NCBI RefSeq assembly: GCF_014252955.1
Contig: NZ_JACMIA010000001.1
Coordinates: 3,308,258 to 3,372,257, forward strand
Direction of reading: 5' to 3'
Origin: Stappia sp. 28M-7
GTDB taxonomy: Bacteria > Pseudomonadota > Alphaproteobacteria > Rhizobiales > Stappiaceae
Length of the DNA: 64,000 nucleotides
Under the pieces are notes generated by a model that had not been told where the DNA came from, ran no database searches, and worked only from the letters and a program-made list of their open reading frames with translations. Shown one piece after another: positions 38,293 to 50,586 of this stretch; the stretch's first letter is position 1, and each line of letters begins with the position of its first letter. Made by a program: the position numbers and the translations under genes.

Positions 38293-38613
38293 TCAGGCCT
38301 GGCGCTCGGGAATGCGGACGACGAGGCCGTCCATCGCATCCGTCACCTTGATCTGGCAGGACAGGCGCGAGCTCGGCTGAACGTCATAGGCAAAGTCCAG
38401 CATGTCCTCTTCCATCGGCTCCGGCGAGCCGGTAACGCCGGTCCAGGCATCGTCGACATAGACATGGCAGGTCGCGCAGGCGCAGGCGCCGCCACACTCC
38501 GCCTCGATCCCCGACACCATGTTCTTGATGGCATTTTCCATCACGGTCGAACCGACGGGAGCATCCACGACAGTTTCGGCACCGTCGGCGGCAATATAAG
38601 TGATCTTGGGCAT
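38293..38613 (-). CDS. adrenodoxin-type [2Fe-2S] ferredoxin
   Basis: A 106-residue electron carrier. Cluster ligands are C40, C46, C49 (C-x5-C-x2-C in [15 protein letters not shown]) and C86 (RLSCQI), typical of vertebrate-type/putidaredoxin ferredoxins; an extra C44 lies within the loop. The acidic surface [12 protein letters not shown] (about 65-76) is the usual reductase or P450 docking patch. The start [11 protein letters not shown] is canonical. Adrenodoxin-type ferredoxins serve P450s or Fe-S assembly, but no P450 or isc gene is in the window. Terminator shared with the convergent gene. Confidence 0.95.
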
Positions 38614-38724
38614 TGGCGGCTGGTCTCGGCACTGGAAGGGCACGGAAATATCCTGCCTTCGACATAACCAATCACGCCGAAACGTCAAGCACGCTACCGC
38701 CGCCCCGACCCGACCCGAGGCTGG

Positions 38725-39165
38725 TCAATCGCGCAGCAACTGCTCGATGAAGGTCTCGGCCTCCTCGACAGTTCCGGCCAGCACGGGAAGATCTGCCGCA
38801 CCGCCGTCATCCAGCGCGGCCTGCTGCCGTTCGGCCGCACCTGCCACGCCCCATGCGCCGATCCCCTTGGCGGACCCCAGCAGAGTATGCAGCAGGCGCC
38901 GCAGCGCCACCTCGTCCGGCGCCTCGTGCATGCGTGCCACCAGCATCCGCGCCTGCACGGCGAAAAGCCGCAGGACCTCACGCTCCAGGTCGCGATTGCC
39001 GAGGGTATGGCGCGTCAGGTGGACCAGATCGACCGGGGCATCGGCTTTCGATGCGTGGTCGGTATGCCCGGAAGCGGCATCGGGATGTCTCGCTGTTGCC
39101 TGCATGGCGGCAGCACCTTTCGTCAGTGGCGCGGCTTGCGGAGCCGTCGCGCATGGGTCTGCCAT
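38725..39165 (-). CDS. HPt-domain phosphotransfer protein (orphan)
   Basis: A 146-residue protein whose second half is an HPt domain: four-helix bundle with the phosphorylation site H93 in RRLLHTLLGSAKGIGAWGVAG. It would relay phosphate between a hybrid histidine kinase and a response regulator, neither of which lies nearby. Residues 1-44 are low-complexity. An ATG at residue 21 (MQATARHP) would give a 126-residue form. GTTAAC lies 80 bp upstream at 39246. Confidence 0.8.
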   Translation of the reverse strand: MADPCATAPQAAPLTKGAAAMQATARHPDAASGHTDHASKADAPVDLVHLTRHTLGNRDLEREVLRLFAVQARMLVARMHEAPDEVALRRLLHTLLGSAKGIGAWGVAGAAERQQAALDDGGAADLPVLAGTVEEAETFIEQLLRD

Positions 39166-39368
39166 CCAAAATCGTTAAAAGGCGCGAAAACCGGGTTAAG
39201 CATGCCGGCGATTTCCACCGGCCCGGCCAACAAAGTGAATCTTTGGTTAACGCGCGTAAACGTTTGCCCTGCGAGCAGACGTCGGGGCTGTGCCTCCAAC
39301 ACCCCGCCGGCGGGCCTGTCGCGCTGCGACCGGACAAGGTCGAACGGCTCGTCGTCGAGGCGCCGGCT

Positions 39369-39683
39369 TCACCTCTCCGACGACGATCTGGCGACCGCGC
39401 GGCCTGCTTCCGTCAACCGACAGACGAGCCAGTCAGGCTTGATCGGATTGGAAAACCAAGGCTCTGCCCATCCTGCGGCAATGCAGGCGCGGATGGTCTT
39501 TTCCGCAACACGGCGTCCGTCCGCGTCGAACAACGGAAGCTTGCCGCCGGCCTGATCGAGCCCTCTGGCAAGCCATGCGGCCTGGACGGCCGACGGCGCC
39601 CGCCCAGCCTTGGAGTGCGCACCCTGTGCGCCATCAGTCCCTGTGGAGGAACCGCGCCGCCCTCCTCCCGCAGCCCTGCCCAT
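39369..39683 (-). CDS. small conserved-looking hypothetical protein
   Basis: A 104-residue protein: N-terminal Gly/Arg-rich basic stretch (MGRAAGGGRRGSS), then a possible winged-helix-like C-terminus (KTIRACIAAGWAEPWFSNPIKPDWLVCRLTEAGRAVA). The start was chosen at 39683 because AAGGAG lies 9 nt upstream; an ATG at 39743 gives 20 more residues. It could bind nucleic acid, judging by the basic start. Unknown function. Confidence 0.5.
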   Translation of the reverse strand: MGRAAGGGRRGSSTGTDGAQGAHSKAGRAPSAVQAAWLARGLDQAGGKLPLFDADGRRVAEKTIRACIAAGWAEPWFSNPIKPDWLVCRLTEAGRAVARSSSER

Positions 39684-39940
39684 GCCCCTCATCTCCTTGT
39701 CATGACTCTGCAAATTGTTGTTCGCCTCGGCAGATTGTGTCATTAGCTTTAGGTGTGCGGCAAGTTTGGGAGAGCCGCGTCCAGCGACCAGAGGCCGGTC
39801 GGCGACGCAAGCAGTATGCCTCTCCTCGACACGATTCAGGCGCATCGCCGGATCCATGAAGCTGTGCAAGGTCTTGCGGCGACGTGTTTTGCGCCGCGGC
39901 ACCCGATGTGTAACGAGTACGGACGCGAGGCGAGTTAGAT

Positions 39941-42900
39941 ATGGCAAATCCCCCGAAGGCGAAGGATCCCGCCGAGGCTGCCCTGTCGGCTGTCGAGGAG
40001 GCGCTGAAGATCGATTTCGGCGACCTGGACGAGAGCGACAAGGCCAGCGGCAACGGGTCCGAGACCGCGAGCGCGGGACCGGCAAGCTCCGAGCGCAGCA
40101 CAAGCGAGCGCTCCGGTGATCTCGCCGCGACCTCTACGACCTCCGACAGCCAGCGCACATCCGCCAAGCGCGGTCGCGGCGGCGGACGTCCGACATCGGC
40201 GGCCAATGACGACCGCCGGACCATCGGCAACCTGATCTACGCCCTGCAGCGGCGGCCGAGCTCGGCCCCGTTCTGGTTCGCCCTCGCCCTCAGCGTCGTC
40301 TGGGTGGCCGTCGGCTGGTGGCTGGCCTCCGCCATCTTCAGCACCGAACTGTCCAGCGTCCAGAGCGCCGGCGACATCGCGTCCTCGCCTTCGCTCATCC
40401 TGCTGTCGGTCGCCGTTGTCGTGCCGGTGCTGTTCTTCTGGGCGATGGCCCTGATGATCTTCCGCGCCCAGGAAATGCGCATCGTCGCCCGCGGCATGAC
40501 CGAGGTCGCCCTGCGCCTCGCAGAGCCCGAGGACGTCGCCAAGGAGTCCATTCTCAGCGTCGGCCAGGCCATCCGCCGCGAAGTCGCCGCCATGGGCGAC
40601 GGCATCGAGCGCGCCATCGCCCGCGCCAGCGAGCTGGAAGTTCTCGTGCACAACGAGGTCTCTTCGCTTGAGCGCTCCTATAATGACAACGAGCTGAAGA
40701 TCCGCGCGCTGATCGACGAGCTGGTCACCCAGCGCGAGGCGGTGGTTTCCAACGCCGACCGCGTCCGCGACAGCATCACCGGCGCGCATGAGAGCCTTGC
40801 AGCCCAGCTGCAGGCAACGTCTGAAAAGATCGGCGAGATCACCGACACCGCGACGGACCGCCTCACCGGCGCCATTGAGGCCCGCGTGAGCGAGTTCAAC
40901 GCAACCGTCGACGGCCGCGTGCGCGAGATCACCGATACGTTCAGCACCGCCGGCGGCGAGCTCATCGAGAACCTTGCCTCGCATGGCGAGAGCTACGTTG
41001 CCCGCCTCACCGGCACCGGTGAGACGCTGGTCGACAGCATGAGCCGTACGGGCCGCGAGTTCGCAGAGACGCTCGAGTCTCGCGGCGGCGAGATCAACGA
41101 TCGCTTCGCGGCGACCGCGACCGAGTTCGTCGAGACCCTGTCGCTGCGCGGCGGCGAGATCAACGACCGCCTGGCGGAAACCTCGGCCAACCTCTTCGAG
41201 ACGCTGGAAAGCCGCGGCACGGAGATCAACGACACGCTGGCCAACACCGGCGCCTCTATCGTCGACACCCTGTCGGTGCGCAGCCACGAGATCACCGAGG
41301 CCCTCACCTCCACCGGCCAGACCGTCGGCGACACCATCACCCAGCGCGGCGAGGAGATCACCGCCAACCTGTCGCTCACCAGCGGCAAGCTGATCGACAC
41401 GATCACCACCCGCACCGAAGACCTGCTGTCGACCCTCGACAGCCGCGTCACGGGCCTTGATGCCTCGCTCGCTGAGACCGGCGACCGGGTGGTCGAGAGC
41501 ATCTCGCTGCGCGGCCAGGAGGTCACCGACACCATCTCCGTCAAGGGCGCCGAGATCGTCGAGACGCTATCCTCGCGTACGAGCGAAGTGGCGGAAATCC
41601 TGCGCGGCACCGGCGAGTCCATCGTGGTCGACCTGTCGCTGCGCGGCGGCGAAATCGCGTCCAAGCTGGACGAGACGGCCGGCAGCCTCACCGAGACGAT
41701 CACCGTGCGCGGCACCGAGCTGGCCGATCGCCTCGGCTCGGTCGGCGACAAGATCCACGAAGCCATCTCCGTCAACGGCGAGGCCCTGGACCAGCGTCTC
41801 GAGACCCGCAGCCAGGAGATGGCAAAGCTCATCGACGGGCAGACACGTGCCTTCCGCGCGGCGCTCGACGAGGCCTCGGCCACGCTCGGCACCTCGCTGT
41901 CGATGCACACCAGCGACTTCGCCCGCACCCTGTCCGAGACCGGCACGGAGCTGGCCCATCTCATCGGATCGCGCGGCGAGCGCGTTGCCGGCGAGCTGAC
42001 CTCCATCGGCGATCGCCTCAGCCAGACCCTGGACGAGCGCGGCACAAGCCTGCAGAGCGGCCTCAGCGGCCATCTGGAGCAGATGGAGCACCTGATCGGC
42101 GAGCGCGGCACCGAACTGGTGGCCTCGTTCGAGCGGCGCACCAGCGAGCTGGGCGAAACCCTCGACGGCCGTATCGAGTCGCTGAACTCGACGCTGGACC
42201 TGCGCGCCTCGACCATGGCGGAAGCGCTCGACACCCGGATCCAGGGCTTCGACCAGACCCTGTCCGGCGGCATCGAAACGCTGACCTCGACCCTGGACCT
42301 GCGTGCCTCAACCATGGCGGAAGCCCTGGACACCCGCATCAGCGGTTTCGACGAGACCCTGTCCGGCGGTATCGAGCGTCTGTCCACCACGCTGGACGCG
42401 CGCACCGGCCAGTTCGAGAAGACCCTCAACGAGCGCACCGTCGCCCTGTCCGACCTTCTGGAAGACCGCTCGCAGGCGATCACCCTGCAGCTGTCCGACA
42501 AGGTCGACCAGGTCGGCGCGACGCTGGGCAGCCGCGCCGAGGAAATCGGCACCAGCCTGTCGGAGCGCTCGCGCCTGATCGGCGAGGCGATCGAGCAGCA
42601 TCTCGTCACCTTCGAGGGTTCGATCGGCTCCAAGGTCGAGCAGGCGGCCAACGCCATGTCCGACAAGGCCGAGCACCTTGCCAACACCATGTCGCTCGGC
42701 ACCGAGCGCATCGACCAGGCGCTGGACGCGCGTGCCCGCCAGATCAGCGAGACGCTGATCGCCCGGACTCGCGAGATCGCCGCCGCCTTCGTCGATGGCC
42801 AGACCGAGATGTCGAAGTCGCTGGACCAGCGCCTGACCGACGCCGGCGCCGTGCTGTCGCGCCAGAGCCAGGAGCTCACCGACACGCTGTCCGACCGCAT

Positions 42901-45508
42901 CGCGGAGATCAACGTGTCGCTCGGCTCCAAGGTGTTCGAGGTCGCCGAGACCCTGGACAGCCGCTCTGCGGAACTGGAGCGGATGCTGGCCGAGCGCCTT
43001 GCCGCGATCACCGGCACGCTCACCAGCGAGACCGAGCGCGCCCGCGAGACCCTCTCCGAGGTCGTCATCGAGGCCGGCGGCACGGTGGACCGCCTCAGCG
43101 GCACACTTTCGGGTGAAAGCAGCAAGCTGAAGGAGATCATCGAGACCACGCTGGACGAGGCGACCACCAAGCTGGAAGGCGAAGGAGCGCGTCTGCGCCA
43201 GATCGTCCTCGGCTCGGTCGGCGAGGCCCGCGGTGCCCTTCAGAGCGAGAGCGAGAAGGCCGCAGAAGCCATCATCGCCTCCCTGTCCGGCGCCACCGGC
43301 AACCTGTCGAGCGAAGGCGAACGCCTCCGCGAGCTGCTGCTGTCGGCTGTGGGCGAAGCCGCCCGTTCGCTGGCTGCGGAAAGCGAGAAGGCCCGCACCC
43401 TCTTCGTCGGCACGCTCGGCGAGATGAGCGGCGCCCTCGGCAGCGAGAGCGACAAGGTCCGCGAAGACCTGACCCGCACCGTCGCCGATGTCGCGAGCAC
43501 CCTGTCGGCAGAGAGCGAGCAGGCCCGCATGGTGCTTGCCCGCACGGTCGAGGAAATCCGCAACACCGTCTCCGGCGAAGCCGACGGCGTGCGCTCGCAG
43601 GTGGCTGGCGCGGTTCGTGCCGCGGCAGACCTGCTGGCCGAGCGCGGCAACGCAGTTGCCGAAGATCTGGTGGCCCGCGCGGATGCGCTCAACCAGGCGC
43701 TCGACGAGCGCGCCGGCACGCTGTCGCAGCTGCTCGGCACGGACGGCAACGCAATGGTCAACGCCATCGAGGAGCGGGCGCATGCCCTCACCTCGCGCGT
43801 GTCGGAAATCCACGACGCAATCCTGGAAGCCATCACAGTCAAGGGCCGCGACGTCACCGACAACTTCGCCCGTACCGGTCTGGATGCCACCCGCAAGCTG
43901 GTGGAAGCCGGCGACGCGCTGGTCGCCACGCTGGACGAGCGCAGCACGTCGGCGGCAGAAGTTCTCGGCAGCACCAAGGCGCAGCTGGAGAGCGACATCA
44001 CCGCCCTGCTGGACCGCCTGACCGAGTCCAACAGCCTGCTCAGCGACGTCGTCGCAAATGCCGGCGACAACCTCGGCAAGGTGGAGACGTCCCTGTCGCG
44101 CAGCGCCGGCGAGTTCCGCACGGCGATCGACCGGGCGCTCAGCGAGACCACGGCCTCGGCCGGTTCTCTCGAGAACCAGACCTCGGTCCTCAAGCAGGTC
44201 TCGCAGGAGGTCCTCAGCGACATCTCCTCGCTGGCCAGCCGCCTGGAGGACCATGGCCGCATGCTGAGCGAAGCCGCCAAGAACCTCGACGAAACCAACC
44301 GCGAAGTCGACGCCCGCGTCGGCGAGCGCAAGACCGCGATCGAGGAAGTGGCGGACACGCTGCTCGCCAAGACCGAGGCGGTCGACAGCCTGATGCGCAC
44401 CTTCTCCAAGCAGCTCGAATCGGCTCTGACCGGGGCCGACCAGAAGAGCCGCGAGGTGACCAGCATGCTGACGGCCGCGGCCGAGGCGGCAACCGCATCG
44501 GTGAGCGAGCAGTTCGAGTCGATGCGCCTGTCGGCCGGCCTGGAGGGCCAGAAGGCCCGCGAGGCCGTGCGTGCCGCACAGGACGACATCGTCGCCGAAA
44601 TGTCGAAGACCCTCTCGGAGGCCTCCGAGCGCTTCACCGAGGCAACGACCCGCATGCGCGACGTCGCCCGCGACGTCCACCGCGAGCTGGAGAAGACCCG
44701 CGCCGAACTCAAGCGCGGCATTCTCGACCTGCCGGAAGAAGCGGAGCAGTCCGCGTCGGCCCTGCGCAAGATCGTCAGCGAGCAGGTTCGCGCGCTGACC
44801 GAGCTGTCGGAGATCGTCGCCCGCCAGTCGAACGTGCTGGACACCTCGCGCGCCGGTGAGCGCGCGGCGACCGCCACGCTCGCCAATGTTGCGACGGCTG
44901 CAGCGCCTGCCCGCCAGGCTCCTGCACCGGAGCCGGCGGCACCGCGTCAGCAGCAGCAGCCTGCGGCTCCCGCACGCGGCGGAGAGATCCGCGGCGAGCT
45001 GCGCCGCAAGACGCTGAGCGACTTCGACGCTCCCAAGCCCGCACCGCAGGCCGAGGCTCCTCGCAGCGGCGGCCAGGGCAAGGGCTGGGTCTCCGACCTG
45101 CTGCGCCGTGCGTCGCAGGACGAGGCGCCGGCTGGTGACGAGCCCCAGGGCCGTTCACCGCTGCAGATGGTCGAGTCGCTGAACTCGCTGTCGATCGACA
45201 TCGCCCGTGCGATCGACCACGAGACGTTCATCGACCTGTGGGACCGCTACAAGCAGGGCGAGAGGCACGTGTTCACGCGCCGCCTCTACACCCTGCAGGG
45301 CCAGCAGACCTTCGACGAGATCCGCCAGAAGTACGCGCGCGATGCCGAGTTCCGCTCGGCTGTCGACCGCTACCTCGTGGATTTCGAGCAGCTGCTGTCC
45401 CAGGTCTCCCGCAACGACCGCGACAACATCATGAGCCAGACCTACCTGACGTCCGATACGGGCAAGGTCTACACCATGCTGGCGCATGCCAGCGGCCGGC
45501 TCGACTGA
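39941..45508 (+). CDS. giant apolipoprotein-like repeat protein, Growth Pole Ring (GPR) homologue candidate
   Basis: A 1855-residue protein. Residues 1-95 are a charged, disordered N-terminus. Two transmembrane helices lie at about 111-133 (FWFALALSVVWVAVGWWLAS) and 151-173 (SLILLSVAVVVPVLFFWAMA). From about 240 to 1500 the chain is built of helical 11/22/33-residue repeats of the type RGGEINDRLAETSANLFETL, giving a rod of more than 1000 residues; the repeat is that of apolipoprotein A1/A4/E. Residues about 1640-1740 are Ala/Pro/Gln-rich, and the last 115 residues are a distinct conserved-looking domain (HETFIDLWDRYKQGERHVFT ... YTMLAHASGRLD). The build equals that of the Agrobacterium GPR protein, a ring at the growing pole of Rhizobiales. 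Stand-alone gene with its own terminator. The GPR assignment is from architecture. Confidence 0.85.
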   Translation: MANPPKAKDPAEAALSAVEEALKIDFGDLDESDKASGNGSETASAGPASSERSTSERSGDLAATSTTSDSQRTSAKRGRGGGRPTSAANDDRRTIGNLIYALQRRPSSAPFWFALALSVVWVAVGWWLASAIFSTELSSVQSAGDIASSPSLILLSVAVVVPVLFFWAMALMIFRAQEMRIVARGMTEVALRLAEPEDVAKESILSVGQAIRREVAAMGDGIERAIARASELEVLVHNEVSSLERSYNDNELKIRALIDELVTQREAVVSNADRVRDSITGAHESLAAQLQATSEKIGEITDTATDRLTGAIEARVSEFNATVDGRVREITDTFSTAGGELIENLASHGESYVARLTGTGETLVDSMSRTGREFAETLESRGGEINDRFAATATEFVETLSLRGGEINDRLAETSANLFETLESRGTEINDTLANTGASIVDTLSVRSHEITEALTSTGQTVGDTITQRGEEITANLSLTSGKLIDTITTRTEDLLSTLDSRVTGLDASLAETGDRVVESISLRGQEVTDTISVKGAEIVETLSSRTSEVAEILRGTGESIVVDLSLRGGEIASKLDETAGSLTETITVRGTELADRLGSVGDKIHEAISVNGEALDQRLETRSQEMAKLIDGQTRAFRAALDEASATLGTSLSMHTSDFARTLSETGTELAHLIGSRGERVAGELTSIGDRLSQTLDERGTSLQSGLSGHLEQMEHLIGERGTELVASFERRTSELGETLDGRIESLNSTLDLRASTMAEALDTRIQGFDQTLSGGIETLTSTLDLRASTMAEALDTRISGFDETLSGGIERLSTTLDARTGQFEKTLNERTVALSDLLEDRSQAITLQLSDKVDQVGATLGSRAEEIGTSLSERSRLIGEAIEQHLVTFEGSIGSKVEQAANAMSDKAEHLANTMSLGTERIDQALDARARQISETLIARTREIAAAFVDGQTEMSKSLDQRLTDAGAVLSRQSQELTDTLSDRIAEINVSLGSKVFEVAETLDSRSAELERMLAERLAAITGTLTSETERARETLSEVVIEAGGTVDRLSGTLSGESSKLKEIIETTLDEATTKLEGEGARLRQIVLGSVGEARGALQSESEKAAEAIIASLSGATGNLSSEGERLRELLLSAVGEAARSLAAESEKARTLFVGTLGEMSGALGSESDKVREDLTRTVADVASTLSAESEQARMVLARTVEEIRNTVSGEADGVRSQVAGAVRAAADLLAERGNAVAEDLVARADALNQALDERAGTLSQLLGTDGNAMVNAIEERAHALTSRVSEIHDAILEAITVKGRDVTDNFARTGLDATRKLVEAGDALVATLDERSTSAAEVLGSTKAQLESDITALLDRLTESNSLLSDVVANAGDNLGKVETSLSRSAGEFRTAIDRALSETTASAGSLENQTSVLKQVSQEVLSDISSLASRLEDHGRMLSEAAKNLDETNREVDARVGERKTAIEEVADTLLAKTEAVDSLMRTFSKQLESALTGADQKSREVTSMLTAAAEAATASVSEQFESMRLSAGLEGQKAREAVRAAQDDIVAEMSKTLSEASERFTEATTRMRDVARDVHRELEKTRAELKRGILDLPEEAEQSASALRKIVSEQVRALTELSEIVARQSNVLDTSRAGERAATATLANVATAAAPARQAPAPEPAAPRQQQQPAAPARGGEIRGELRRKTLSDFDAPKPAPQAEAPRSGGQGKGWVSDLLRRASQDEAPAGDEPQGRSPLQMVESLNSLSIDIARAIDHETFIDLWDRYKQGERHVFTRRLYTLQGQQTFDEIRQKYARDAEFRSAVDRYLVDFEQLLSQVSRNDRDNIMSQTYLTSDTGKVYTMLAHASGRLD
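42191..42388 (+). repeat. in-gene tandem repeat, two 99-bp units
   Basis: Within the giant protein, the 33-residue unit LDLRASTMAEALDTR-I-x-GFDxTLSGGIE is repeated twice back to back (42191-42289 and 42290-42388) with few nucleotide differences. It is the most recent-looking duplication in the repeat array. Confidence 0.85.
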
Positions 45509-45560
45509 TCGCGGCGGGGCGGCATCGCCCCCCCTGCCCGGATACGGTTTCATCAAAAGC

Positions 45561-45592
45561 AAACGCGGTCCCTCGGGGCCGCGTTTGTCGTT
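45561..45592 (+). terminator. rho-independent terminator of the giant protein gene
   Basis: AAACGCGGTCCC / GGGGCCGCGTTT, a 12-bp stem with one G-T wobble and a 2-nt loop core, followed by GTCGTTT. It lies 52 bp after the stop. Confidence 0.8.
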
Positions 45593-46077
45593 TGGGGGCA
45601 GAGGGGATGAAAGGTCGCTCCCCCTCGGAGGTCATCCCGGTCAAGCGAAGCGCAGAACCGGGAGCCAATGGCAACCCCGGCAGGCGTGAGGCAGAAGGCG
45701 CTCACCCCACTCTCGGCTGTCATGCCTGCGAAGGCAGGCATCCAGCATCCGCCGGAGCGTGTGGGTTTGCGCAACCAGGCCCCCCTGAGCGAGGGGGCTC
45801 GCGGCAGTGCCGAGGTCTGAGCCGAAGCGTTCGGGGTTACTGGATCCCGGTCTTCGGCTGTGCCGAGACCGGGACGACAGGCGGGGCGTGGGCGCGCGTC
45901 GGCGTGCCCTCACCGCCGCTCTGGGAACGAATAGGCCCCGGCGCGCGCTTCGCTTGGCCGGGGTGACGGCAGAGGGGATGTGGGCAGGCCATTCTCAGAA
46001 CGTCGTCCCGGGCAAGGCGCCGCCCGACCCGTGATGACAACTGGACGACGGCCGCGAGGACGCCAAGCTCGCGCCGA
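45593..46077. other. intergenic stretch with palindromic repeats
   Basis: No gene seen. It holds the four palindromes listed separately, and beyond 45990 nothing recognisable up to the end of the minus-strand lipoprotein gene at 46078. Confidence 0.6.
45631..45963. repeat. cluster of four interspersed palindromic elements
   Basis: Four imperfect hairpins in a row: 45631-45664 (TCCCGGT/ACCGGGA, loop containing AAGCGAAGCGCAG), 45722-45741 (ATGCCTGC-gaag-GCAGGCAT), 45845-45874 (TCCCGGTCTTCGGC/GCCGAGACCGGGA) and 45936-45963 (CCCCGGC/GCCGGGG). The wording GTCATCCCGG(T/C)CAAGCGAAGCGC...CCGGGA is typical of small mobile intergenic repeats of alphaproteobacteria. They may spread as non-autonomous elements. 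Confidence 0.7.
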
Positions 46078-46713
46078 TCAGACGTTGGACAGGACCCAGG
46101 TCGACATCTCGCGCAGCACGCTGTCGGTTGCCGCATTTATCGCATCGACCGCGTCGCGCACGTTGGTGCTGCGCGCCGGGGCTTCTGCCCGGAAGATGCG
46201 GCTCGCTTTGGTGCGGCCGTTGCGGTCGTTGACCAGACGGGCCATCACCTCGACCACTGCGCGGTTCTGGCCGTCGATCTGCAGCTGGAAGGACCTGAGA
46301 TCCGTCTGAAGCTGGTAGTCGATCAGCAGTCCCTCGCCCGGCAGACCGACGCCGCGCAGGCCGCGGGTGTTCTCCAGCGACTGGACGATCTTTGCCTGCA
46401 CCACCTTGGGCAGCGTGTCCGTCCAGGCCGCCTTGGGGAAATAGGTGTAGACAGGGCCGGCATCGACGACGGCAATGGACGCCGTATCGAGCGCCTGCAG
46501 GGCGCGCGGCGCAGGCACCAGGACCTGGATGCTGCCGCTGCGCCCCGGCACGGTCTTTTCCGTGACGGTCGGCGTGGTCAGCCCGTAATAGGCGTCCGGG
46601 GTGCTCGCGGAGCCGCAACCGGCAAGCAGAAGTGCCAGCGACAGCCCTGCGGCCGTCACTGCGCCCCTGACGCGACCCGTCCCACACATACAAAACTCCA
46701 CTTTTCGCATCAT
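46078..46713 (-). CDS. ABC-transport auxiliary lipoprotein (MlaB/PqiC-like component)
   Basis: A 211-residue lipoprotein: signal peptide ending in the lipobox LLAGC (lipidated cysteine near residue 33), then the PqiC/DUF330-type fold (VLVPAPRALQALDTASIAVV; TDTLPKVVQAKIVQSLEN). It probably docks the MCE protein to the outer membrane. It overlaps the MCE stop by 4 nt and is last in the operon of permease, ATPase, MCE and lipoprotein. Confidence 0.85.
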   Translation of the reverse strand: MMRKVEFCMCGTGRVRGAVTAAGLSLALLLAGCGSASTPDAYYGLTTPTVTEKTVPGRSGSIQVLVPAPRALQALDTASIAVVDAGPVYTYFPKAAWTDTLPKVVQAKIVQSLENTRGLRGVGLPGEGLLIDYQLQTDLRSFQLQIDGQNRAVVEVMARLVNDRNGRTKASRIFRAEAPARSTNVRDAVDAINAATDSVLREMSTWVLSNV

Positions 46714-48359
46714 CGCCGCTGCGCACCTCCGAAGGTCGGCTTGTCCGGCCCGCCGAAGATCACGCGCTGCGGATCGCGGTTGAGGTCTGCCGCCGTGCGC
46801 TGGATCTCCAGCAGCGTGCGGCTGAGCTGTGCCATGGCATTGGAGAAATCGGTCGAGCCGCGTGCGGTGAAACGCTCCAGCCCGCTGGTGATCGGTCCGA
46901 CCCGCTCGGCGAGCACGTCGGCGACCTTGCGGATCGACGCGGCCGCCTGCGTCGCCTCGGCGATCAGTCCCTCGCCGTCACCCTCCACCATCGCGTCGAC
47001 CTTGTCGACGACGCTCTGGACGCGGGTCCCGGTCGCATTGAGCTTCGAGGCCAGTTCCTGCGCATCGCGGACGATCTGGTCGATCTGCGGGCCGCGTCCC
47101 TTAAGGCTCTGGCTGAACTCGTTCACATTGTCGACCGCTTCGCCGGCCTTCTCGATGGCATCGGTCACGATCTTCGTCTTGCCGGCGATCTCCCCTGAGA
47201 AGCGCTCGACGGACGCCACCAGGCTCTTGACCTGCTCCGGATCCACGGCAGCGACCACCTGGTCGATCCGGTCGACGGTGGCGACGAGCTGCGTGCCGAT
47301 GGCACGTGCATCCGCCAGGACCTGGCGAATGTCTTCCTTACCCTCGGCCAGGGACGTGCTGGCCTGTTCCAGGTTCTCCATCGTCCGGGTCGAGGACACC
47401 ACCAGCCGGTCGATATCCGCAGACCGCTCCTGAAGCACGGATGCAAAGGCCGAAGCGCCGTCGACGATCCGCGTGATCGCCTCGGGACGGACGGTCTCGA
47501 TCACCGCATCGACCTTGGCAAGGCTGGCCGTCAGGCCTGAAGCGAACTGCTGCAGCTCCTGGGCCGCGCCCTCGGCATTGGCGACGAGCTCTGTCAATCC
47601 GTCTGCCGCCTCTGCCGCCTTGGACGTGACCTCGGCGGCATTGTTGACGATCTCGGTCACACGGCCGGGGGGTACCGCATCGACAACGGCGGTCGCACTG
47701 TTGACCAGCCCTTCAAGCCGGCCGGACAGGCTCTGCAGCGCCTCGCCGGTGCTGGCGACGCTCGCCATGAAATTATCGACGCCATCGGCATTGCTCGCCA
47801 GCGCATCGGAAAACACGCGGGCATTGACGATGATCTTGTTCACTTCCTCACGATTGTCGTTCACCACCCGCTCGATCGAGGCGAGCGTGGTGTCGGCGCG
47901 GCTGAGAATGTCCCGCGCACCCTCCACGATATCCTCGAAGGCCGACTTCTCGGCATAGATGACCGGAGGCTCTTCGTCGTTGGGGTCGAGCAGCAGCGGC
48001 GCGCTGGTCGAGCCGCCGGACAGATCGACATAGGCAATGCCCGAAAGCGTCTGGAACCCGAGTGTTGCCTTGACGTCGCTGCGCAGGGGCGTGGTCGGGC
48101 TGACGCGGATCGTCGCAATCACGACGCGTGGATCCTTCGGATCGAAGCCCAGTTCCCCGACATCGCCGACCTTGATGCCGTTGAAATTGACAGCGCCGCC
48201 GACGGACAACCCGGTCACCGCCCCATTGAAGACGACCTTGACCGGCAACGCGCGCGGCCCTTCAGCCCGGCTGCCGAGCCAGTAGATAAAAACAAAACCG
48301 ACAATGAGCGTCGCGAAGACGAATGCACCAATGGCAATATAATTCGCGCGGGTTTCCAT
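46710..48359 (-). CDS. MCE/MlaD-family substrate-binding protein
   Basis: A 549-residue protein: N-terminal inner-membrane anchor (about residues 5-28, YIAIGAFVFATLIVGFVFIYWLG), one MCE domain (about 38-118) and a very long helical/coiled-coil tail (about 150-530). The short MlaD of E. coli has only the MCE domain; this long single-MCE type likely forms a hexameric tunnel with a needle crossing the periplasm, as in PqiB/YebT-like or long MlaD proteins. It handles lipid traffic between membranes. Neighbours are the matching permease, ATPase and lipoprotein. Confidence 0.92.
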   Translation of the reverse strand: METRANYIAIGAFVFATLIVGFVFIYWLGSRAEGPRALPVKVVFNGAVTGLSVGGAVNFNGIKVGDVGELGFDPKDPRVVIATIRVSPTTPLRSDVKATLGFQTLSGIAYVDLSGGSTSAPLLLDPNDEEPPVIYAEKSAFEDIVEGARDILSRADTTLASIERVVNDNREEVNKIIVNARVFSDALASNADGVDNFMASVASTGEALQSLSGRLEGLVNSATAVVDAVPPGRVTEIVNNAAEVTSKAAEAADGLTELVANAEGAAQELQQFASGLTASLAKVDAVIETVRPEAITRIVDGASAFASVLQERSADIDRLVVSSTRTMENLEQASTSLAEGKEDIRQVLADARAIGTQLVATVDRIDQVVAAVDPEQVKSLVASVERFSGEIAGKTKIVTDAIEKAGEAVDNVNEFSQSLKGRGPQIDQIVRDAQELASKLNATGTRVQSVVDKVDAMVEGDGEGLIAEATQAAASIRKVADVLAERVGPITSGLERFTARGSTDFSNAMAQLSRTLLEIQRTAADLNRDPQRVIFGGPDKPTFGGAQRR

Positions 48360-48377
48360 GCTTACGCCTGTTCCTGC

Positions 48378-49187
48378 CTATACCCGCCGCAACGCGCGTT
48401 CGCCGTTGAAATAGGACTGCACCCAGGCATTGTCGAATTCCATGAGTTCGACGACCGTCCCCGTCTTCAACACCTTCTTTTCTCCTAATACCGCGACGCG
48501 GTCGCAAATGGAATGCAGGCTGTCGAGATCATGAGTGACCATGTAGACAGTGAGGCCGAGCGTATCGCGCAGTTTGCGCACCAGATCGTCGAATGCCGCC
48601 GCGCCGATCGGGTCGAGACCTGACGTCGGCTCGTCGAGAAAGACGAGGTCCGGATCGAGGGCCAGCGAGCGCGCAAGGCTCGCCCGCTTGATCATGCCGC
48701 CGGAGAGCTCGGACGGGAACTTCTCCGCCGCATTGCGCGGCAGGCCGACCATTTCCAGCTTCAACAGGGCGAGCTCGTCCATCAGCCGCTGCGACATGCG
48801 CATGTGCTCGCGCATCGGCACCTGGATATTCTGCCGCACGGTGAGCGAGGAGAACAGGGCGCCTTGCTGAAACAGCACGCCCCAGCGGCGCTCCACCGCC
48901 TGCCGTTCCTCCGGCGAGGCCTTGTCGAGATCGACGCCGAACACCTCGATGGTGCCGGCCCGCTTCGGCGTGAGGCCGAGAATGGCGCGCATCAGCACCG
49001 ACTTGCCGGTGCCCGATCCGCCGACGAAGCCCAGGATCTCCCGTGTCCGCACGTCGAGATCCAGATCCTTGAGGACCACCGTCGAGCCGAAACCGACCGT
49101 CACGCCGCGGGCGCGCAGGATCACCTCCTCGCCGGGCGCGTTCGTCTCGTCCGCGGTCGGCGGCGCAAGGGCAGTATCGGACGGCAT
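48378..49187 (-). CDS. MlaF-like ABC transporter ATP-binding protein
   Basis: A 269-residue ATPase: Walker A GGSGTGKS (about 56-63), Q-loop LFQQGALFSSLTVRQN, ABC signature LSGGM with MIKRASLARSLALDPDLVFLDEPTSGLDP (Walker B) and H-loop VTHDLDSL. Length and motifs match MlaF of the Mla phospholipid transport system. ATG at 49187 abuts the permease stop. It energises transport with the permease at 49188. Confidence 0.95.
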   Translation of the reverse strand: MPSDTALAPPTADETNAPGEEVILRARGVTVGFGSTVVLKDLDLDVRTREILGFVGGSGTGKSVLMRAILGLTPKRAGTIEVFGVDLDKASPEERQAVERRWGVLFQQGALFSSLTVRQNIQVPMREHMRMSQRLMDELALLKLEMVGLPRNAAEKFPSELSGGMIKRASLARSLALDPDLVFLDEPTSGLDPIGAAAFDDLVRKLRDTLGLTVYMVTHDLDSLHSICDRVAVLGEKKVLKTGTVVELMEFDNAWVQSYFNGERALRRV

Positions 49188-50333
49188 TCAGATCCCGATC
49201 GAAGAAAAGAAGATGGCGAACAGGCCGTCGACGACGATCACCATGAAGATCGCCTTCACGACGGACATGGTCGTGTGATGGCCAAGCGACTCGGCCGAAC
49301 CCGAGACTTTCATGCCTTCCACACAGGCCACAAGGCCGATGATCAACGCCATGAACGGCGCCTTGACGATGCCCACCATCAGAGTGTCGACGGTAACCGA
49401 CTGCTGCATCAGGTTGATGAAGACCCGCGGCGCCATGTCGAGATAGAGCCAGGAGATCAACCCGGCACCGAACAGGGCAGCAAGGTTGGACAGGAAGGTC
49501 AGGATCGGCAGGGCGAGAATGAGCGCGAAAAGCCGCGGCAGGATCAGCACTTCCGTGACCCGCAGCCCGATGACATGCAGCGCGTCGATCTCCTCGCGCA
49601 TTTTCATCGAGCCGATCTCGGCGGTGAACGCGGACCCGGACCGTCCCGCGACCATGATCGCCGTGAGAATCACGCCGATCTCGCGCAGCACCAGCACGCC
49701 GGACAGGTCCACCACGTAGACGTCGGCACCGAACTGCCGGAGGTAGAAGCCGCCCTGCTGGGCGATGATCGCACCGATGAGGAAGCTCATCAGCATGACG
49801 ATGGGCACGGCGCCGATACAGGCCCTGTCGAACTGGGTGGCGATGGAGACAATGCGAAGGCTCCGCGGGCGCAGGAACACGCCCGACAGCACGCTGACCA
49901 GGGACCCGACGATGTGGAGAATGGCGAGCGCGTCGCGCCCAATACCGACGACCTCGCGCCCCGTCGTCTCGAGAATGCTGAACAGCGACAACTTGTGACG
50001 CGCCGGCGCCCAGGGAGTCGGGTGGTGCTGCTCGACCTCGGAAATCAGCGCATCGAAGGACGGGAGCGCCCCCTGCAGGCTGACACGCGAGCCGTGAAAC
50101 TCCAGGTCGCCGCGCAAGCGGTGGATCAGCCAGGCACCCGCCGTATCCAGTCGCCCGACCTGCGACAGGTCGATATGGATACGACCGCCGGACGGCGCGT
50201 CGATGCCCTCGACGGCCTGTTCGAGAATCTCGCCGTGATGGATCGTCCAGGGCCCTGCAAGCACGAGGAGCAGGTCGCCGTCCTTCTCCGTCGCCGTGAG
50301 ACGCGGTATCTCCTGTGCTGCATCAACCGTCAT
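49188..50333 (-). CDS. MlaE-like permease with N-terminal STAS-like domain
   Basis: A 381-residue inner-membrane protein. Residues about 8-105 form a STAS-like domain (LDTAGAWLIHRLRGDLEF), equivalent to MlaB fused to MlaE. The permease part has 5-6 helices (IVMLMSFLIGAIIAQQGGFYLRQFG; MVAGRSGSAFTAEIGSM, the conserved loop that contacts the ATPase). First gene of the operon; ATG at 50333 begins the STAS domain, the earlier in-frame codons are not family-like. Confidence 0.92.
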   Translation of the reverse strand: MTVDAAQEIPRLTATEKDGDLLLVLAGPWTIHHGEILEQAVEGIDAPSGGRIHIDLSQVGRLDTAGAWLIHRLRGDLEFHGSRVSLQGALPSFDALISEVEQHHPTPWAPARHKLSLFSILETTGREVVGIGRDALAILHIVGSLVSVLSGVFLRPRSLRIVSIATQFDRACIGAVPIVMLMSFLIGAIIAQQGGFYLRQFGADVYVVDLSGVLVLREIGVILTAIMVAGRSGSAFTAEIGSMKMREEIDALHVIGLRVTEVLILPRLFALILALPILTFLSNLAALFGAGLISWLYLDMAPRVFINLMQQSVTVDTLMVGIVKAPFMALIIGLVACVEGMKVSGSAESLGHHTTMSVVKAIFMVIVVDGLFAIFFSSIGI

Positions 50334-50586
50334 GCCAGCTGTCGTCCCGTCCCTTTGGATCCTGAGTCCGGCAGCCGGGCTGCCTGCCTCCTCCTCGCAT
50401 GAGGAGACCGGTCGGGCGGCCCCGCCCCCTTGCCGAGCCTCCCAGGCACCACGTATACCTTGGCGCCAATGCAAGCGTCCACCCGGCCACCGCTTTCGCG
50501 GGCGTACGGTCCTGCCAACGTCTGGCTGTCGCCCGGCAAGCGCCTGGCCGACCAGTCCGGAAAATTCCGACTATCAGGAGACCACG

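Follow-up and report, generated by a model that had tools for sequence, protein, structure and literature searches.

A probable GPR/RgsE orthologue in Stappia with a hendecad-patterned rod

Results

The gene at positions 39941-45508 (forward strand) of the window, by which we mean the whole 64,000-nucleotide stretch of Stappia sp. 28M-7 DNA analysed here, most likely encodes the Stappia orthologue of GPR/RgsE, a polar-growth scaffold, for which we infer localisation and oligomeric state. We assign this reading a probability of roughly 0.75. What might be new is the set of comparative constraints placed on this already known GPR/RgsE family.

Resemblance to the Growth Pole Ring protein had been proposed in a first-pass annotation and was borne out by homology. 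Compared with a 2,089-residue, RgsE-sized protein of S. meliloti Ak57, the Stappia protein is 73% identical in its C-terminal region and 37% identical over residues 12-223, which include the transmembrane region. Both regions have specific homologues beyond generic coiled-coil matches. Of 199 genomes sampled from the order (membership of the order being the grouping used by the genome search itself), 190 gave a single match to the C-terminal 115 residues, and a profile search of the remaining nine did not recover the domain. The N-terminal 223 residues were matched in 41/41 genomes of the family. Within the Stappia genome the C-terminal domain was found once, at this gene, which bears on the earlier concern that GPR might lie elsewhere; the nearest named records are Stappia, with 99% identity of this domain to that of Stappia sp. 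TSB10P1A. The neighbours also correspond, since Hpt and 2Fe-2S ferredoxin genes lie upstream of the Ak57 gene, on the opposite strand and in the same order as in Stappia. RgsE itself is reported to be 2,089 residues long and to share 42% identity with Agrobacterium GPR; every Rhizobiales family is said to have homologues, with distant ones also known from Emcibacterales and Rhodospirillales (PMC7327166). A separate observation concerns record CP090106.1 (L051; 3.7 Mb), which is titled S. meliloti pSymB. It contains rgsE, whose product is annotated as kinesin, together with folK and hemF, and is possibly a mislabelled chromosome.

The gene is a single intact open reading frame of 1,855 codons. 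Its ATG start is supported by relatives, whose N-terminal motif aligns with the Stappia protein from residue 1. This motif, DPAEAALSAVEEALKIDF (residues 9-26; 39965-40018, this and the following features all on the forward strand), is presumably cytoplasmic, is kept in most aligned sequences of the order and is a candidate partner-binding helix. Two hydrophobic segments conserved in the alignment (residues 107-135 and 143-177; 40259-40471) match the pair of N-terminal transmembrane helices read previously in a protein of this length, and a strongly conserved juxtamembrane segment covers residues 175-245 (40463-40675). A proline scan and periodicity analysis delimit a proline-free rod at residues 197-1597 (40529-44731), in which a 33-residue unit of three hendecads, read in the translation, is tandemly duplicated (residues 750-782 and 783-815; 42188-42385). 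The rod is separated by a Pro-rich linker at about residues 1651-1738 (44891-45154; 14 Pro within residues 1651-1750) from a conserved C-terminal helical domain of 115 residues (1741-1855; 45161-45505). Structure prediction gave this domain six helices at a mean pLDDT of 86.7, in agreement with the distinct domain earlier placed at about residues 1740-1855. A Foldseek search of the domain against the PDB returned no match at E <= 0.001 (best E 0.46) and the best phmmer match reached only E 0.039; on these values a fold-based identity for the domain was dropped.

Three further observations concern open frames. Antisense to the rod, at 40993-44886 on the reverse strand of the window, there are open frames of 725, 790 and 548 codons, probably a by-product of the repeat and of GC composition. 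The frame of the GPR gene is apparently interrupted in two Stappia-group assemblies (L185 and G173), candidates for a sequencing error or a frameshift. The Stappia sp. 28M-7 genome has a second, weak PF01442-type open reading frame of 729 codons (G000:C1:1182177-1183016).

The more than 1000 residues of apolipoprotein-like 11/22/33-residue repeats that had been described are readily detected in the rod. Its hydrophobic periodicity peaks at 3.664 residues with a power of 128.5, against a maximum of 11.8 in 500 shuffles, and the power at 7/2 (3.5) is 0.24. Self-identity is maximal at spacings of 22, 44, 33, 66, 77 and 88 residues, and the Pfam model PF01442 scores 239.8 bits (cut-off 90) in 8 stretches of the 1,855-residue protein. 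The phase of the 11/3 signal stays within -134 to -86 degrees in 110-residue segments whose first residue lies anywhere from 252 to 1242. The segment that begins at residue 197 has no such signal; from a start at 1297 onwards the phase drifts and is then lost, the signal being weak or absent at 1352 and 1407. These results show that the rod sequence reads as a phase-locked hendecad array, in register over more than 1,000 of its 1,401 Pro-free residues.

Repeat number had been said to differ between species, and within the genus it does so in exact hendecad steps. Measured between identical anchor motifs, nine same-genus proteins have seven different rod lengths, each equal to 4 modulo 11; all 36 pairwise differences, which are not independent events, are multiples of 11, and 34 are non-zero, ranging up to 352. 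Among 21 proteins of the Stappia family, lengths modulo 11 are 4 (12 proteins), 8 (7) or 0 (2), and the 24 named loci of the family (L184 and L186-L208) give 4 or 8, L185 having been left out because its frame is broken upstream. As a general rule, quantisation in steps of 11 residues was rejected: values modulo 11 are scattered in Rhizobiaceae, and the rule also fails in Mesorhizobium and kin.

The chemistry of the rod bears on what it does. Only two of the 11 hendecad positions are hydrophobic (0.79 and 0.66), Arg is concentrated at a single position and acidic residues at different ones, and the net charge is -101 over 1,401 residues. On the sequence, the narrow seam and the acidity argue against a wide lipid-binding face and make a hendecad coiled coil more probable than a lipid-binding apolipoprotein. 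The competing view, already put forward for Agrobacterium GPR, makes the rod a lipid-binding, apolipoprotein-like amphipathic helix that lies on, or sorts, membrane lipid at the pole; we hold it to be unlikely. An 11/3 period also fits membrane-lying helices such as those of alpha-synuclein and the perilipins, and the PF01442 score is well above its cut-off. SWISS-MODEL models of two GPR regions have in addition been published as resembling apoA-IV (PMC8262873). The same Pfam model, however, also gives sub-cut-off matches in seven of 14 control genomes and thus partly reads generic helical periodicity. Besides the two-position seam and the strong acidity, composition argues against lipid binding as well, with 2.4% Lys and 1.6% aromatic residues, though Arg reaches 8.1%. 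Relatives outside the order, all of which have the C-terminal domain since they were found by it, mostly keep the membrane helices, yet their rods mostly have a 25/7 period.

To place the rod in its family, we turn to these relatives. A profile of the C-terminal domain matched 148 of 387 genomes of the class, six in the order and 142 of 381 outside it, the weakest match having E 2e-4. Among the 141 outside genomes with listed lengths, open reading frames have a median length of 1,044 codons and reach 1,500 or more in 22 genomes, and MreB is matched strongly in 137 and only weakly in four (five best candidates scored per genome). The nearest rod period is 25/7 in 35 of 40 outside loci, 29/8 in four and 18/5 in one. 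Inside the order, the 29 MreB-negative loci divide into 22 nearest to 11/3, four to 29/8, two to 25/7 and one to 18/5, and the 12 MreB-positive loci into seven nearest to 29/8, four to 11/3 and one to 25/7. Among the loci listed, common self-identity spacings are 25, 50 and 75 outside the order and 11, 22 and 44 inside. On a tree of the membrane and C-terminal regions (76 rows), one branch (98/98) has the 35 outside rows all on the same side, and period class requires four changes. Rod length and period are correlated across the 41 loci of the order (Spearman 0.81) and not across the 40 outside it (-0.17), both values being uncorrected for relatedness. Family scans of seven and of eight outside relatives named nothing informative.

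Such a distribution could be taken to mean that the Stappia protein is a general TipN-like new-pole landmark, serving polarity or chromosome segregation instead of wall growth. Consistent with this, nearly all of the 142 outside genomes carrying the domain have MreB, and the literature likens GPR to TipN: a similarity of GPR to Caulobacter TipN is noted (PMC8546619) and TipN is called analogous to GPR (PMC13170164). Both the TipN resemblance and the fact that some homologues lie outside Rhizobiales have been published before. We nevertheless consider a landmark role in place of wall growth quite improbable. The orthologues of Agrobacterium, S. meliloti and Brucella abortus are reported at the growing or new pole (PMC7327166, PMC8262873, PMC9938171), and those of the first two are described as needed for shape (PMC7327166, PMC8262873). 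A generic long coiled coil of SMC, ZorA or kinesin type, sharing only its build with GPR, might explain sub-cut-off matches to the ZorA (E 1.4e-9) and SpiroCoCo models and the annotation 'kinesin' on the S. meliloti Ak57 homologue, but it is extremely improbable given that the non-repetitive C-terminal and transmembrane regions are specifically conserved and syntenic, and that the ZorA match attains 36.8 bits against a cut-off of 190.

The GPR/RgsE reading is accompanied by a conserved gene neighbourhood. The first-pass annotation held that the gene stands alone with its own promoter and terminator. It is indeed alone on its strand, but neither signal was recovered by consensus scan, and the gene is divergently paired with a conserved cluster on the reverse strand. 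This cluster consists of a small open reading frame of 124 residues lacking a Pfam match (39369-39743), a single-domain, ShpA-like Hpt (38725-39165) and a 2Fe-2S ferredoxin with a putative start codon (38293-38688). The small frame, which lies between the Hpt and GPR genes, is present in most loci fetched from the family, elsewhere in the order at L059, L144, L145 and L211, and outside the order at L104, L105, L108, L114 and L126. The Hpt scores 25.1 bits with PF01627 (cut-off 24.6), and its best PDB match is 2ooc (E 6.3e-4), which we take to be Caulobacter ShpA; 2ooc is also the best PDB match of two Hpts from outside the order (E 3e-10 and 1.5e-8). The phosphoacceptor His is present in 59 of 61 aligned Hpt neighbours, Stappia included, the exceptions being a Sphingomonas locus and L109.

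Conservation of the divergent arrangement was assessed in named loci, the 80 best-matching being taken out of at least 595; 72 had a complete gene and more than 1,500 bases upstream. Divergent Hpt and ferredoxin genes were found in 72/72 of these, one ferredoxin (L211) being non-adjacent, and some of the 80 genomes overlap those in the sampled-genome counts. The Hpt adjoins the GPR gene in 52 of 63 loci of the order (21 of the 63 being from the Stappia family), and in four of the 11 loci without it the upstream sequence ran to no more than about 1,000 bases. Outside the order it occurs in 9 of 41 loci, and 26 of the 32 without it had at least 2,000 bases upstream. In eight of these nine outside Hpt loci the ferredoxin is absent from the fetched stretch, which commonly extends 2-3 kb beyond the Hpt, and the ninth (L110) has it; the Hpt-GPR pair therefore seems to be kept there for longer than the other neighbours. 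Judging from gene order only, the divergent Hpt probably serves the same polar programme as GPR. A search of the open literature found no link between Hpt and the growth pole ring, a single co-mention concerning another gene.

As for expression signals, an E. coli-type consensus scan of 39000-46100, which alphaproteobacterial promoters may escape, found no forward-strand promoter and no terminator downstream of GPR. Reading the sequence, we found an 8-bp hairpin at 45561-45586 (forward strand), a possible terminator, which the scan missed because its 10-nt loop is too long for it. Further downstream, at 45600-46000, lie palindromic GC-rich intergenic repeats such as TGCCTGCGAAGGCAGGCA. Convergent with GPR, the reverse strand at 46078-50474 encodes an MlaE-like permease with a STAS domain, an ATPase, an MCE protein whose tail is a long coiled coil, and an ABC auxiliary lipoprotein, likely a lipid-transport operon.

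As expected of polar growers, the Stappia genome has no true MreB match, defined as E below 1e-28: the best PF06723 match among all seven candidates scored is 6.3e-16. Across the order as grouped by the genome search, a true match was obtained in 24 of 199 genomes, two of these being fragments and one of the 24 being without a GPR match; this observation is contrary to the absence of MreBCD in Rhizobiales stated in PMC8546619. Considering open reading frames of at least 700 residues (13 of the 190 frames, being shorter and presumed contig ends or breaks, were dropped), GPR frames in MreB-positive genomes of the order have a median of 1,103 with none above 1,500 (n=21), and those in MreB-negative genomes a median of 1,833 with 111 above 1,500 (n=156). 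The comparison gives p = 2.9e-7, or p = 2.5e-6 with the 13 short frames included, and p = 0.0024 by family (10 vs 37). On the gene tree, branches with good support yield only four independent MreB contrasts. If rods are divided at 1,200, one of the four goes in the expected direction and three are without difference; if they are divided at 1,000, one is for, one is against and two are equal. In one clade rods are short with or without MreB. The striking raw counts had suggested that rods are long because MreB was lost; this causal reading was rejected, as independent contrasts give it no support.

Discussion

Wall growth in Rhizobiales takes place at one pole without MreB, and GPR/RgsE is a leading candidate for its scaffold. 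In the mechanism that we propose, the N-terminus would tether GPR to the inner membrane of the new pole, and rods would pair through the two-position hydrophobic seam into long coiled coils. These could fix the spacing of adjacent anchors around a ring, and the C-terminal domain would recruit the growth machinery as far as about 200 nm away from the membrane anchor.

An alpha-helix rises 0.15 nm per residue. If its 1,401 residues form one continuous helix, the Stappia rod would be about 210 nm long, and rods within the genus would span 195-248 nm. Agrobacterium GPR is reported as six foci in a 200-nm ring (PMC8262873), so that an unfolded rod would be of the same order as the ring, making a ruler possible. 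The same source gives the foci as 50 nm wide, from which its authors infer folding, and argues for folding from an extended 1,700-residue helix put at 600 nm (PMC8262873). At 0.15 nm per residue, 1,700 helical residues amount to about 255 nm, against the printed 600 nm. The contribution of the C-terminal domain is not simple. In Agrobacterium GPR, deletion of the C-terminal 221 residues is reported to abolish function, whereas a deletion of 332 residues, which also lacks the domain, keeps more function, still with paired foci (PMC8262873). In S. meliloti, RgsE is reported to contact TolQ, RgsA and RgsS (among PMC8262873, PMC7327166 and PMC9938171).

A joint reading of these data would make the rod a hendecad-counted ruler, its length setting the diameter of the ring, with whole 11-residue units gained and lost in such a way that one seam keeps its phase for more than 1,000 residues. 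GPR would then be a lengthened Rhizobiales form within an alphaproteobacterial family of new-pole landmarks whose rod passed from a 25- to an 11-residue repeat, and a ShpA-like Hpt phosphorelay would act on it via the old divergent pair. We regard this combination as speculative. In the open literature searched, we found no hendecad described in a polar context in Alphaproteobacteria or, among the papers listed, in an apolipoprotein or Rhizobiales context. The constraints offered here are the hendecad quantisation within the genus, the coiled-coil argument, a different estimate of rod length, the class-wide C-terminal domain and the conserved Hpt partner gene. Were rod length to set ring size, the diameter would be tunable by whole hendecads.

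Among known systems, apolipoproteins of PF01442 have the 11/22-residue helical periodicity in common with the Stappia protein, which scores over the cut-off of the model; unlike them, it has a narrow acidic seam, a long Pro-free rod, a transmembrane anchor and a C-terminal domain. Caulobacter crescentus TipN (882 aa), compared by its published description, marks the new pole and combines membrane helices with a large coiled coil in the cytoplasm. ShpA, taken to be 2ooc, is the best PDB match of the Stappia Hpt, for which a role in an ShkA-TacA-like relay is putative; ShpA itself is reported to work in the ShkA-ShpA-TacA relay (PMC7010744). RgsE of S. meliloti (SMc00190, 2,089 aa), represented by its Ak57 homologue, shares the C-terminal domain at the identity given above, an alignable transmembrane region and the ferredoxin and Hpt neighbours; the homologue is longer and its hendecad register looser (period 3.654, with additional spacings of 29 and 106). 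With GPR of Agrobacterium tumefaciens (Atu1348, 2,115 aa), likewise compared by its published description, the Stappia protein shares two N-terminal transmembrane helices, a long apolipoprotein-like repeat rod and a Pro-rich segment, as well as a C-terminal region that in GPR is important for function. The Stappia rod is shorter, with 1,401 Pro-free residues against the published 1,700 helical residues, and a ring such as GPR forms in Agrobacterium is predicted for the Stappia protein.
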